Shown in pieces: positions 2,886-6,787 of a stretch of 41,330 nt of DNA; positions within the stretch are counted from its first letter, which is position 1; each line of letters opens with the position of its first letter. Origin of the DNA: a virus. The stretch covers positions 1 to 41,330 of IMG/VR virus record IMGVR_UViG_3300043446_001780. The stretch is one strand, 5' to 3'. The notes under the pieces were generated by a model that saw nothing but the letters and a program-made list of their open reading frames with translations, was not told where the DNA came from and ran no database searches. The translations under genes were made by a program, and so were the position numbers.

Positions 2886-3125
2886 ATGGCACTAAACCCT
2901 GCACACAAGATAATCGCAAAGCTCGGTGGCGAAAAAACGGTCGCCGAGCTTCTCGGCCTCGAGCTCAGTGGCGTCTATCGCTGGTCCTACCCGAGGGACC
3001 GCGGCGGCACCGGCGGGCGCATCCCGGCGCGCCACATCAAGCCGCTGATTGCCGCCGCCAAGGCGCGCGGCAAGCGGCTCTCGCTCAACGACTTCTTCCA
3101 AGAGCCGTCTGAGGTGCAGCAATGA
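2886..3125 (+). CDS. Cro-like small DNA-binding protein (79 aa)
   Basis: First rightward gene, divergent from the repressor. Residues 5-35 (IIAKLGGEKTVAELLGLELS) followed by GVYRWSYP and IPARHIKPLI match the small Cro/YdaS-like helix-turn-helix proteins of alphaproteobacterial phages, in which an xxVYRW recognition helix is followed by IPxxH and a C-terminal LxxxDFF. In this position it should compete with the repressor for the shared operator and favour lytic growth. The ATG at 2886 is so close to the promoter that the message may be leaderless. The stop overlaps the next ATG by 4 bases. Confidence 0.82.
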   Translation: MALNPAHKIIAKLGGEKTVAELLGLELSGVYRWSYPRDRGGTGGRIPARHIKPLIAAAKARGKRLSLNDFFQEPSEVQQ

Positions 3126-3618: not shown

Positions 3619-4890
3619 ATGCAGACGGTTGAAATCCCGGTTTCCGATGTTCGTCTGGTGATGGAGCTTTATCCGCGCCTTGAGACGAAGATGATTGACA
3701 GCTTGGTCGAGCAATATCGCGACGCGATTGAAGATTTGCCGCCGATTGTTGTCGCACGTGGTGGCATTTTGGTTGACGGGATGCACCGTTGGCAAGCGCA
3801 TATCCGCGAAAAGCGCGAGACAATCAAGGCTGTCGACCTTGGCGACATTTCCGACGCTGAGATTTTCTCGGAAGCTGTTCGGCTGAACGCGAGCCACGGG
3901 CGCCAGCTCAGCCGTTCTGAAAAGAAGAACGTCGCGGCGCGGTTCTGGGCGGATATGGCGCATATCGAAGAAGGCGAGCGCCTTGCCGAAATCATGCGCC
4001 GCCTGTCGATGGGCAAGCAGGCGGTTTACGACGCGACCAAGGACGCTCGCAAGGAAGAGAAGCGCGCCAAGCAGGACAAGGCCATTGATATGTGGCTGGA
4101 CTGCTACACTGACGCTGAAATTGCCGAAGCTGTTGATGTGACAGATCGGACGATCGCAGGATGGACCGAAAAAATTCCGGAAACGGAAAAATTTCGCCTG
4201 CCCCCCGGCTCCGACAAAGACACCCCTTGGGGCCGCGTCCAGCACTTCGACGTCTGGAACATCGGCACGGACGGCGGCGACGGCAAATATTTCGGCAAGA
4301 TGCCACCTGCCATCGTTGAGAACCTTCTCTGGCTTTACACCGCCCCAGGCGAAATCGTCTTCGACCCGTTTGGCGGTTCTGGCACGACGATTAAGGTCGC
4401 CAAGGCTATGGGCCGTCGTGTCTGGTCAAGCGACAGGCGCGGCAATGCATGGGATCCGACACAGCCTATCCACATTCACGACATTACGACCGGCTGGCCG
4501 AGCGACGCACCGAAAAAAGTCGACCTTGTCATTCTTGACCCGCCTTACTGGCAGCAGGCCAAGGGGCGCTATGACGAAGACGCCGCCGAATGCCTTGGCA
4601 ACATGTCGCTAAGCGATTTTTACGCTGCGTGGGACCGCGTCGTAGAAGCGATTTCCGGCCACGCCAAGCGGGCCGCATTCATCATCAGCCCGACCCAAAA
4701 CGAAGACGGCAGCGTCGAAGACCACGCTTTTGAGATGGCTGGCTCGTTCCACGCCGCCGGCTGGCGCACCGAGCGTCGCATCATTGTCCCGTATTCGACA
4801 CAGCAGGCTACCGGCCAGCAGGTGACATGGGCGCGCGAAAACAAGCGGCTGCTGAAACTCTACCGCGACTTGGTTGTGGTTTCGATATGA
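3619..4890 (+). CDS. ParB-like domain fused to DNA methyltransferase (423 aa)
   Basis: Residues 1-95 form a ParB/Srx-type domain with the signature LVDGMHRW (51-58, G-x-H-R). A helix-turn-helix follows at about 164-185 (TDAEIAEAVDVTDRTIAGW). Residues 215-423 are an N6-adenine/N4-cytosine methyltransferase: the AdoMet-binding motif FDPFGGSGTT (248-257) comes before the catalytic DPPYW (307-311). FGG-first order differs from the usual beta class (DPPY first), although the sequence around the FGG motif looks beta-like, so the enzyme appears circularly permuted. Expected activity is methylation of phage (and host) DNA at a sequence selected by the HTH/ParB part, either to escape host restriction or to shape transcription. 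The stop overlaps the ATG of a putative nuclease (4887). The ribosome site is weak (AGTGAG), and the gene follows directly on a terminator. Confidence 0.85.
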   Translation: MQTVEIPVSDVRLVMELYPRLETKMIDSLVEQYRDAIEDLPPIVVARGGILVDGMHRWQAHIREKRETIKAVDLGDISDAEIFSEAVRLNASHGRQLSRSEKKNVAARFWADMAHIEEGERLAEIMRRLSMGKQAVYDATKDARKEEKRAKQDKAIDMWLDCYTDAEIAEAVDVTDRTIAGWTEKIPETEKFRLPPGSDKDTPWGRVQHFDVWNIGTDGGDGKYFGKMPPAIVENLLWLYTAPGEIVFDPFGGSGTTIKVAKAMGRRVWSSDRRGNAWDPTQPIHIHDITTGWPSDAPKKVDLVILDPPYWQQAKGRYDEDAAECLGNMSLSDFYAAWDRVVEAISGHAKRAAFIISPTQNEDGSVEDHAFEMAGSFHAAGWRTERRIIVPYSTQQATGQQVTWARENKRLLKLYRDLVVVSI

Positions 4891-5426
4891 GCGAAGGGTT
4901 CGCATATCGCATAGCGCTTGCCGAGCACCATGAAAAATGGGTGCTTGCGAAGTTGCGCGAGCTTTATGGGAGCCGAATAAAACACGCTGAGCCATTTGGG
5001 CAGGCTTTGTTCAGCCATCAGCTCAGGGAGTATCTGCGCCGGGTCAGAACAAAATCCGGCGCAGAAACATTAATCAGGTGGCTCCCAGACATCATCTGCG
5101 TTGGCATTGACGACAGATGCTTTCTTGTCGAAGCGAAGTCTGGCGATGGCTGGAAGAAATACGGAAACCACAGCGTTGAGAACAAGAGTTTAGAAGCCGC
5201 CAGCAAATTTGAGAAAGAGTTTGAAACCGACGTATGGTTCATTTTTTCGGATGGCCGTGGCGAAAAGGCGTCGGTGCTGAATAGCCATCCAGGGAAAAAA
5301 CCTGGCCATTATTCCGGTAACGGCAGCGGCACACCGTTTTCATTGTGGCCGGCTGATAAGCTCACCCAACGCATAGCGCCGACGCCGACGTTTCTAATGG
5401 ACGTTTCAGCGGAGAAATCCGCATGA
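4887..5426 (+). CDS. Putative PD-(D/E)XK nuclease paired with the methyltransferase (179 aa)
   Basis: The ATG at 4887 overlaps the methyltransferase TGA (ATGA), the reason for choosing it over a start 60 bases upstream. Residues 66-84 read LPDIICVGIDDRCFLVEAK: Pro-Asp (67-68), a 12-residue hairpin, then hydrophobic-Glu-Ala-Lys (82-84), the core of PD-(D/E)XK endonucleases. A helix with conserved-looking acidic and lysine residues follows (NKSLEAASKFEKEF). The N-terminal 60 residues are basic and helical and could bind DNA. Coupled translation with a methyltransferase suggests a restriction-modification-like pair or a nuclease guided by methylation state. Other nuclease roles (resolvase-like, replication) are possible. 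I do not recognise a named family and the assignment rests on the motif and context. Confidence 0.6.
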   Translation: MSEGFAYRIALAEHHEKWVLAKLRELYGSRIKHAEPFGQALFSHQLREYLRRVRTKSGAETLIRWLPDIICVGIDDRCFLVEAKSGDGWKKYGNHSVENKSLEAASKFEKEFETDVWFIFSDGRGEKASVLNSHPGKKPGHYSGNGSGTPFSLWPADKLTQRIAPTPTFLMDVSAEKSA

Positions 5427-5875
5427 CCGACGCCCGCACCTTCGCCCAGAGAGCCGCTGCTGCAGTTGAGCCGCCGAAGACTGCCGCGCCGGCTAAAGTC
5501 TCGAATGCCGTTGTTCTGCGCGTTGGCCCGGCGTTTTCAACGAATGCCATGTATCGCAGCTTCTCGCGCGGCAAGAGCTTGGCCACCATCAAATCGAAGG
5601 CCTATCGCGACTGGCAGTCCCGCACGCTTGGCGTCATCGCCACGCAGAAATGGCAGCCCATCACCGGCTGCTTTGGCCTGCAAATTAAGCTGCCGAAGAG
5701 CACGCGCATCGACTTGGATAACACCGCCAAAGCATTTTTGGACACGCTGCGCCATGCAGGCGTGATTGTGGACGACAGCCCGAAATACCTGCGCCGGCTC
5801 GAGATTATCGTCGGCTGGTCGAAGGACACCACCCTGACACTGAAGCCGCTGGAGACGCCCGATGATAGTGAATGA
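5423..5875 (+). CDS. rusA: RusA-family Holliday junction resolvase (150 aa)
   Basis: The RusA fold is visible as an N-terminal P-x-x-x-N-A-M-Y-R segment (about 36-45), the DLDN metal-binding motif (97-100) with Lys103 and Asp107 (LDNTAKAFLDTL), then GVIVDDSPKYL (113-122) supplying further acidic ligands. RusA dimers cut four-way DNA junctions symmetrically and in phages resolve recombination and replication intermediates before packaging. The 25-residue N-terminal extension (AQRAAAAVEPPKTAAPA) is Ala/Pro-rich and probably disordered; an internal start is possible. ATGA overlap with the nuclease gene and a 14-base overlap with the next gene place it in the same operon. Confidence 0.9.
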   Translation: MTDARTFAQRAAAAVEPPKTAAPAKVSNAVVLRVGPAFSTNAMYRSFSRGKSLATIKSKAYRDWQSRTLGVIATQKWQPITGCFGLQIKLPKSTRIDLDNTAKAFLDTLRHAGVIVDDSPKYLRRLEIIVGWSKDTTLTLKPLETPDDSE

Positions 5876-6266
5876 GACTGTCCGCAATTTCCTGTTCAAC
5901 CAGCGCCGGCACGGGCGCGATTTCGCGACATGCGCCGCCAATCTGTCCGACTGGTTTGCCGAAGAGATAACGGCCGACGAGGTTGAAGCGCTGTGGAATG
6001 AGATGATTGCCGCCAAGTGGGTGGCGCAGAAGCGCAATCATCAGCCGAAGTCGAAGCACCCGTTTGCTGGCGAAGACCCTGCGGCTGAAAAGGTTCGGCT
6101 GAAGAACGCCAACATCATGCACCTGGTCGACCTCAAGCGCGCTGGCCACAGCCCAACCCGCACCGAATACGTCATCAGCGCCGAAGGCAAGGGTGTGAAA
6201 TACGCCACGACGCCGACGTCGAGCTATCTCGGCAGCGCCGCCGCCACCTGTGTGGAGCAGGCCTGA
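5862..6266 (+). CDS. Hypothetical protein, possibly DNA-binding (134 aa)
   Basis: Begins MIVNETVRNFLFNQRRHGRD. The first 60 residues (DFATCAANLSDWFAEEITAD then EVEALWNEMIAAKWV) look like a winged-helix-like arrangement, and residues 60-134 are basic and low in motif content. It overlaps the end of rusA by 14 bases and its TGA overlaps the ATG of the gcrA-like gene. No family recognised; operon position suggests a replication or transcription accessory role. Confidence 0.6.
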   Translation: MIVNETVRNFLFNQRRHGRDFATCAANLSDWFAEEITADEVEALWNEMIAAKWVAQKRNHQPKSKHPFAGEDPAAEKVRLKNANIMHLVDLKRAGHSPTRTEYVISAEGKGVKYATTPTSSYLGSAAATCVEQA

Positions 6267-6787
6267 TGACCGAGCCGGCCCAAACGCACCGCAACTGGAA
6301 CGCCTGGTCGGAGGCTGACGACGCGCGCCTGCGCGAGCTGATTGCTGAAAACCTGTCTTACGCCGCCATCGGCAAGCTCATGGGCCGGAACAAAAATAGC
6401 TGCATCGGCCGGGCGCATAGGCTGTCCATTCACACCCGCGACACCAAGCCCATCAGCGTCCGCAAGGTGAAGAAGGACGTCGCCAAGGCGGTTGTGAAGC
6501 TGTTTCCGCCGAAGCCGGCGCCAGAGCCCGTTGAGGCCGCATCGGCCCAGGATAACCGTCCGCAGGCTCGTTACGAGCAGCCGGAGGCCGCGACGACGCC
6601 GTTCGGCATCCCGCGCACCCTGATGGGCCTGCAGCCGCACCATTGCCGCTGGCCTGTCTCCGGCGAGCGCGGCGACACGCTGTTCTGCTGCGCTCAGCGC
6701 GAAGGCCTCGGCCCATACTGCGCGGAACATCGCGCAGTCGCGTGGCGCCCGACGCAGCGCCAGCTCACGACGAAGGCCTACAGATGA
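6266..6787 (+). CDS. gcrA: GcrA-family cell-cycle transcription regulator homologue (173 aa)
   Basis: Residues 11-55 (WNAWSEADDARLRELIAENL then SYAAIGKLMGRNKNSCIGRA) match the GcrA N-terminal DNA-binding domain. After a Pro/Ala-rich linker the C-terminal part has the family cysteine cluster: CRWPVSGERG (127-136), LFCC (139-142) and GPYCAEHRAVAW (149-160). In Caulobacter and relatives GcrA binds sigma-70 holoenzyme and activates promoters carrying CcrM-methylated GANTC sites. A phage copy could redirect host polymerase or tie phage expression to the host cell cycle. The presence of a phage methyltransferase three genes upstream makes a methylation link attractive, but there is no evidence that it makes the mark this GcrA reads. 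Stop and start overlap the neighbours by 4 bases or fewer. Confidence 0.88.
   Translation: MTEPAQTHRNWNAWSEADDARLRELIAENLSYAAIGKLMGRNKNSCIGRAHRLSIHTRDTKPISVRKVKKDVAKAVVKLFPPKPAPEPVEAASAQDNRPQARYEQPEAATTPFGIPRTLMGLQPHHCRWPVSGERGDTLFCCAQREGLGPYCAEHRAVAWRPTQRQLTTKAYR

Follow-up and report, generated by a model that had tools for sequence, protein, structure and literature searches.

The gene for Vsr, a small PD-(D/E)XK-type nuclease, overlaps the gene for the DNA methyltransferase (MTase) Dcm; Dcm is an m5C enzyme, and Vsr repairs the product of m5C deamination. Type II restriction-modification (R-M) systems also join an MTase to a PD-(D/E)XK nuclease and, like the locus described here, place the MTase first. 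According to the available portions of two papers, N6_N4 methyltransferase fusions are enriched in phages within a survey of ParB-fold fusions (PMC12704722), and ParB-MTases lie upstream of the terminase in Paracoccus phages (PMC6536676). Members of the ParB fold are reported in the former to bind CTP, ATP or GTP, with the nucleotide varying among fusions. The same portions of both papers make no mention of a nuclease partner, and a literature search with preprints and most subscription papers outside its coverage returned no other paper on such a partner.

We analysed a 41,330-b IMG/VR virus record (hereafter the window) that carries terminase, SU10-type portal and capsid genes together with an integrase and an S24-type repressor. 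Its gene content is that of a temperate tailed phage, the repressor and integrase bearing out the temperate lifestyle assigned in the earlier note. An ATGA at 4887-4890 is common to the ORFs of a ParB-HTH-MTase and of a nuclease directly downstream, as the earlier note had described. The features of this region, all on the + strand, are as follows.

3619..4890, +, ParB-HTH-DNA methyltransferase (MTase) gene, 423 aa (ORF; PF01555, 60.8 bits; PHROGs; 10-member alignment A5)
3778..3789, +, G54-M-H56-R57, ParB/Srx-type phosphate-binding motif (G54, H56, R57, A60 and H61 invariant in A5)
3886..3909, +, N90-A-x-x-G94-x-Q96-L97, second ParB-type motif (N90, G94 and L97 invariant; A91 and Q96 nearly so)
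3955..4263, +, HTH region, residues 113-215, variable, probable recognition segment (low conservation; replaced in L007/L011/L024)
4357..4389, +, MTase motif I VFDPFGGSGTT, residues 247-257 (D249, F251, G253 and T257 invariant in A5)
4537..4551, +, MTase catalytic motif IV DPPYW, residues 307-311, after motif I (invariant in 10/10 of A5)
4887..5426, +, PD-(D/E)XK nuclease gene, 179 aa, Hjc-like (ATGA overlap with the MTase; A6 alignment; AlphaFold, Foldseek)
5085..5090, +, P67-D68, predicted nuclease active site (D68 invariant, P67 nearly so, n=15 sequences)
5130..5138, +, E82-A-K84, predicted nuclease active site (K84 invariant; position 82 E or D in nearly all)
5423..5875, +, RusA-type Holliday-junction resolvase (PF05866, 32.2 bits, over cut-off; phrog_34; ATGA overlap with the nuclease stop)

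The upstream protein belongs to the N6_N4 DNA methyltransferases, with a PF01555 score well above the cut-off of 26.7 bits, PHROGs matches to DNA methyltransferases and profile matches to the structures of RsrI, MboIIA and CcrM. It shares motif I (FDPFGGSGTT) and DPPY with these canonical beta-class enzymes but carries them in the opposite order, FDPFGG (248-253) ahead of DPPYW (307-311), with both motifs conserved in A5. The Pfam alignment accordingly covers the motif I half alone (136-206 of 221 profile positions), as expected from the reversed order. A ParB/Srx fold is indicated by G-x-(H/R)-R and the downstream N...L motif, both with invariant residues in A5 (n=10), and by weaker ParB-like PHROGs matches; the PF02195 (ParB) profile gave no match to the window MTase in the Pfam search. 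The pocket motif of chromosomal ParB is GERR-type, whereas here it is GxHR. HTH-like matches around residues 145-185 were sub-threshold, and the HTH segment is the least conserved part of the protein (0.36-0.39 vs 0.50-0.63 elsewhere). The G-x-H-R motif, the joining of an HTH and an MTase in one chain and the FGG-before-DPPY order given in the earlier note were thus all recovered. The protein resembles the phage fusions in the available portions of PMC12704722 and PMC6536676 in its N-terminal ParB fold, its m6A/m4C-type MTase and its position upstream of packaging genes, and differs from them in having motif I before motif IV; for those fusions these portions mention no nuclease partner directly downstream. 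A genome-contig search with the MTase yielded nothing beyond truncated copies in bacterial metagenome-assembled genomes (L018-L021; Sporichthya, Thermoleophilia, Actinomycetes, Reyranella), which are likely prophage remnants.

The nuclease had no match in Pfam, PHROGs, PADLOC, NCBIfam or PDB sequences and profiles, and a single-sequence search of phages, viral contigs and genome contigs was likewise empty because the protein diverges fast. We therefore assembled its family from the genes directly behind MTase relatives, which were themselves found by the MTase search. Among 15 such relatives with 22-36 % identity to the window (A6), R64, D68, K84 and the first-helix E16 are invariant, as is E98, while position 82 almost always holds D or E, so that the D...(D/E)-x-K of a PD-(D/E)XK active site is kept across the homologues. 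The earlier note had read this motif as PD-x12-EAK; its residues (P67, D68, E82, A83, K84) stand, and the spacing is actually PD-x13-EAK. L004 reads AD in place of PD, and a further member, L003, lacks the catalytic core; its 77-aa remnant at 5197-5430 still overlaps the MTase at its start and retains the C-terminal motif.

An AlphaFold2 model built on A6 was confident (pLDDT 81.5, pTM 0.75), and in a Foldseek search of the PDB its first 23 matches were all archaeal Hjc, followed by HincII and RecU, which places the predicted core fold in the PD-(D/E)XK superfamily. The best Hjc match reached a probability of 1.00 and an E of ~6e-3; query-normalised TM-scores to Hjc were 0.3-0.4. Matches among viral models included SSV2 ORF211 and several proteins carrying a Holliday-junction resolvase annotation. 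Both its sequence and its predicted fold thus identify the 179-aa protein as a PD-(D/E)XK nuclease. Like archaeal Hjc and bacterial RecU (2wcw, 2eo0, 1gef, 1zp7), its best fold matches, it is a small, single-domain enzyme with an N-terminal helix bearing a conserved Glu followed by D...(D/E)xK, and it sits in a phage recombination context. It has no separate recognition domain. It differs from Hjc and RecU in its tie to methyltransferases and in its own R64, N94, E98 and C-terminal SGTPF-type motif, and no PDB profile, Pfam or PHROG match links it to Hjc or RecU at the sequence level. We use 'Hjc-like' for the build and not for a proven function, since the TM-scores are moderate and Hjc, being close to the bare PD-(D/E)XK core, is a natural top match. 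The protein is also distinct from Vsr, having no Pfam, PHROG or NCBIfam match and an N6/N4 rather than an m5C partner; the overlap of a small nuclease gene with an MTase gene is common to both loci, and the Vsr repair logic is inapplicable here because the MTases are of the N6/N4 type.

The ATGA overlap by itself is weak evidence of a link and was set aside as such, because the junction of the nuclease with RusA (5423) overlaps likewise. Similarity to the MTase alone gave 80 IMG/VR loci, from which we counted 64 distinct full-length MTases, although the independent cases are fewer than 64 because some are close relatives. A nuclease-type gene lies directly downstream in 58 of the 64, with an overlap of exactly 4 nt in 30 of this linked set and a spacing of ≤20 nt in 51. 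Partner types were first assigned by eye from motifs and afterwards verified by profile comparison, in which A and B (probability 99) and C and D (99.6) were homologous, E and F probably so (68), and the groups A/B, C/D and E/F had no detectable relation to one another. Partners of the C/D group have invariant D35, E50-x-K52 and Q62, while E/F partners carry D39, D41, E60 and K70 without ExK. As nucleases the E/F proteins are the least certain, and this tentative assignment is limited to motif pattern and position because an AlphaFold model of an E-type partner had no significant or meaningful PDB fold match. The partner class switches ~19 times on the MTase tree (minimum possible 4, shuffled mean 33.9), indicating that the nuclease slot has been refilled repeatedly. 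The partners in L049 and L081 appear truncated. The gene behind the MTase in L077 (6270-6701) resembles an HNH nuclease (CxxC...DHAFP...CxxCNxxKG) rather than a PD-(D/E)XK enzyme, and in the cultivated archaeal virus Methanoculleus virus L4768/Blf4 (L164, 3453-5229) a ParB-MTase is followed by an overlapping 189-aa gene with D...DVERK, possibly a further nuclease group.

Approached from the nuclease side, a DPPY-bearing MTase lies directly upstream in 33 of 46 C-type loci; ~5 of these MTases have the architecture of the window and the others the canonical motif order, and PF02195 matched 5 of the 27 upstream proteins tested. The A-type nuclease of L103 and the E-type nuclease of L097 also sit behind canonical MTases. 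Eleven of the 46 C-type loci, several of them near-copies, are without an upstream MTase and are preceded by genes that are RecT-like (by sequence reading) or unknown; the remaining two are ambiguous. Among A-type loci, L104 has no adjoining MTase and two m5C MTases elsewhere in its record, and the 43.9-kb record of L101, which may be incomplete, contains an intact nuclease and no PF01555, PF00145 or DPPY-type ORF. E-type relatives without a neighbouring MTase were identified in Pelagibacter phages (L092, 3986-4366, HTVC010P gp56; L091, 3986-4357), one of them annotated 'putative oxidoreductase', a label unsupported by the sequence. The 'putative methylase' label of a Pelagibacter phage neighbour gene is likewise unsupported, as no ParB or MTase was found in the sequences.

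The MTase and the nuclease are two parts that vary INDEPENDENTLY. In L007, L011 and L024, phages near-identical in this region, DNA identity holds at 97-100 % across the nuclease and further on, while the identity of L007 to the other two drops to 43-64 % in the MTase around the HTH segment; among the proteins, nucleases are 99-100 % and HTH segments 42-67 % identical. The differences lie mainly inside the MTase gene and are sharpest near the HTH segment (about 5000-6250 in L007). L025 and L027 follow the same pattern (nuclease 94 %, HTH 59 % identical), and L031 and L033 share MTases that are 86 % identical and have nucleases from different groups. Canonical-order ParB-MTases from one metagenome (L119-L126) carry, immediately ahead of the HTH (~3095-3167 in L119), a strongly divergent segment that varies in length (some 25-40 residues), in genes otherwise near-identical and followed by nearly unchanged nucleases; this segment could represent diversifying recognition. 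The HTH segment would set the specificity of the MTase, and on that assumption MTase and nuclease display no shared, co-evolving recognition specificity. A nuclease that stays constant while the HTH changes, and that can be exchanged for one of another group, argues against an enzyme that recognises a sequence of its own in step with the MTase, and is the chief reason for disfavouring a Type II restriction pair.

The conserved catalytic residues, the Hjc-type match of the model (Foldseek probability up to 1.00) and the recurrence of the pair in relatives place it beyond chance, and the checks of nuclease fold, catalytic residues and linkage proposed in the earlier note all came out in its favour. 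The compact R-M-like system inferred there is not supported: HTH segments, the probable recognition part, are exchanged beside nucleases that remain 94-100 % identical, nucleases are in turn exchanged behind a similar MTase, the nuclease is Hjc/RecU-like without a recognition domain and is found without a detectable MTase, and the pair heads replication and recombination genes. We favour, with moderate confidence, an early DNA-metabolism cassette that combines a self-marking MTase of fast-changing specificity with an Hjc-like DNA-processing endonuclease. MTase and nuclease would together head the early replication and recombination genes of the phage; the genes just downstream of the pair include helicases, primases, replication initiators, RecE/RecT and terminases. 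The ParB-HTH-MTase would methylate adenine-N6 or cytosine-N4 of phage DNA at sites picked by the HTH segment, and the quick replacement of that segment makes shielding of phage DNA from changing host restriction its likely benefit. The nuclease would be a small, active PD-(D/E)XK endonuclease built like Hjc and RecU, most likely cleaving branched or recombining DNA of replicating phage genomes. Sequence and model establish the overlapping genes, the conserved catalytic residues, the predicted nuclease fold, the recurrent linkage and the independent variation of MTase and nuclease, whereas we infer the enzymatic activities, the junction substrate and the anti-restriction benefit.

In favour of such a role, known resolvases are uncommon in 50 of these records (RusA 7/50, RuvC 0/50, endonuclease VII 3/50). 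Mutual exclusion of the nuclease with RusA, RuvC or endonuclease VII was looked for and not found, 10 of the 50 carrying both the cassette and a known resolvase. Against a resolvase role, RusA is the immediate neighbour in the window, which would make a second resolvase redundant, the Foldseek match to Hjc is moderate (TM 0.3-0.4, E 5e-3), and the E-type partner had no significant fold match. A resolvase alone does not account for a nuclease slot occupied in 58/64 cases, nor for different MTases preceding the same nuclease, and our confidence goes no further than moderate because the strict slot and the two-sided exchange of partners are incompletely explained by the resolvase reading.

We regard as unlikely yet worth weighing an alternative in which the MTase marks phage DNA and a nuclease of low or no specificity destroys unmarked DNA, as a loose R-M-like pair directed at the host chromosome (for nucleotides) or at a superinfecting phage. 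In its favour, the 58 partners are tightly spaced (30 with an overlap of exactly 4 nt, 51 at ≤20 nt), the slot is still nearly always filled by a nuclease, once HNH-like (L077), through ~19 switches of partner group, C-type nucleases follow an MTase in 33/46 loci (mostly one of canonical order), and those of L103 and L097 also follow other MTases; MTase ahead of nuclease is also the safe gene order. However, the nuclease stays constant as the recognition segment of the MTase changes, L101 has an intact nuclease and no MTase found, cutting any unmethylated DNA requires a dense mark, and the nuclease has no PADLOC match.

A doubtful further possibility is that the MTase recruits the nuclease and directs it to targets through the ParB-HTH part, which could act as a nucleotide-gated clamp on DNA, in a division of labour similar to Type I/III systems with the helicase translocase absent. 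Such guidance would explain a change of MTase recognition without change of the nuclease, the coupling of the genes and the conserved ParB motifs, and is in line with the binding of CTP, ATP or GTP by some ParB folds in the available portions of PMC12704722. It is difficult to reconcile with nucleases behind MTases lacking a ParB match (PF02195 in 5/27 upstream proteins) or without any MTase, and a specific interface is hard to square with repeated swaps of unrelated nucleases. The full form of this scheme, a minimal re-targetable modification-plus-cleavage system in which ParB-HTH aims the nuclease, the nucleotide-gated clamp replaces the helicase and a swap of one HTH resets specificity, has in our view a slim chance of being correct.

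That the two genes are ordinary early phage genes, functionally unconnected and merely packed into one dense operon, appears very improbable. Overlaps of 4 nt are common in this phage (the nuclease-RusA junction is also ATGA), the nuclease can occur without an MTase, and MTases and resolvases are commonly found together in phage early regions, but linkage in 58/64 MTase-centred and 33/46 nuclease-centred loci, where MTase and nuclease alike have been exchanged, exceeds what dense packing would lead one to expect, as judged on these loci with other phage gene pairs outside the comparison. A classical Type II pair recognising one short sequence and protecting the lysogen is the least credible reading despite the overlapping MTase and PD-(D/E)XK nuclease genes and their adjacency in 58/64 loci, since the parts vary independently (MTase recognition shifting without nuclease change, nuclease groups swapped behind one MTase), the nuclease is small and lacks a separate recognition domain, and in some phages it is present without a detectable protecting MTase (L101 and 11/46 C-type loci, in records that may be incomplete).

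Two genes past RusA the window encodes a GcrA homologue (6266-6787; PF07750, 69.8 bits), which suggests an alphaproteobacterial host. In alphaproteobacteria GcrA reads CcrM adenine methylation, and the clustering of an MTase gene with a GcrA gene in a phage may therefore constitute an epigenetic switch. A small protein at 2886-3125, with a weak match to YdaS toxin and P22 Cro, adjoins the S24-type repressor, which is encoded on the opposite strand (2104-2745).

The two-gene slot represents a real and apparently undescribed phage cassette, present in dozens of other phages, whose halves are swapped independently. Phage methyltransferases are usually called orphans; one widespread family instead has a small nuclease gene behind it in nearly every case, and at this junction both sides are exchanged, the nucleases for unrelated ones and the methyltransferases for ones of different build. 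Because these nuclease families are unnamed in the libraries searched, dozens of 'hypothetical' genes would gain a testable function. It also becomes testable whether phages pair modification with a specificity-free nuclease to tell their own from host DNA or whether DNA marking is here coupled to a junction resolvase, and phages whose main difference in this region is the MTase HTH segment provide a natural experiment for specificity mapping.
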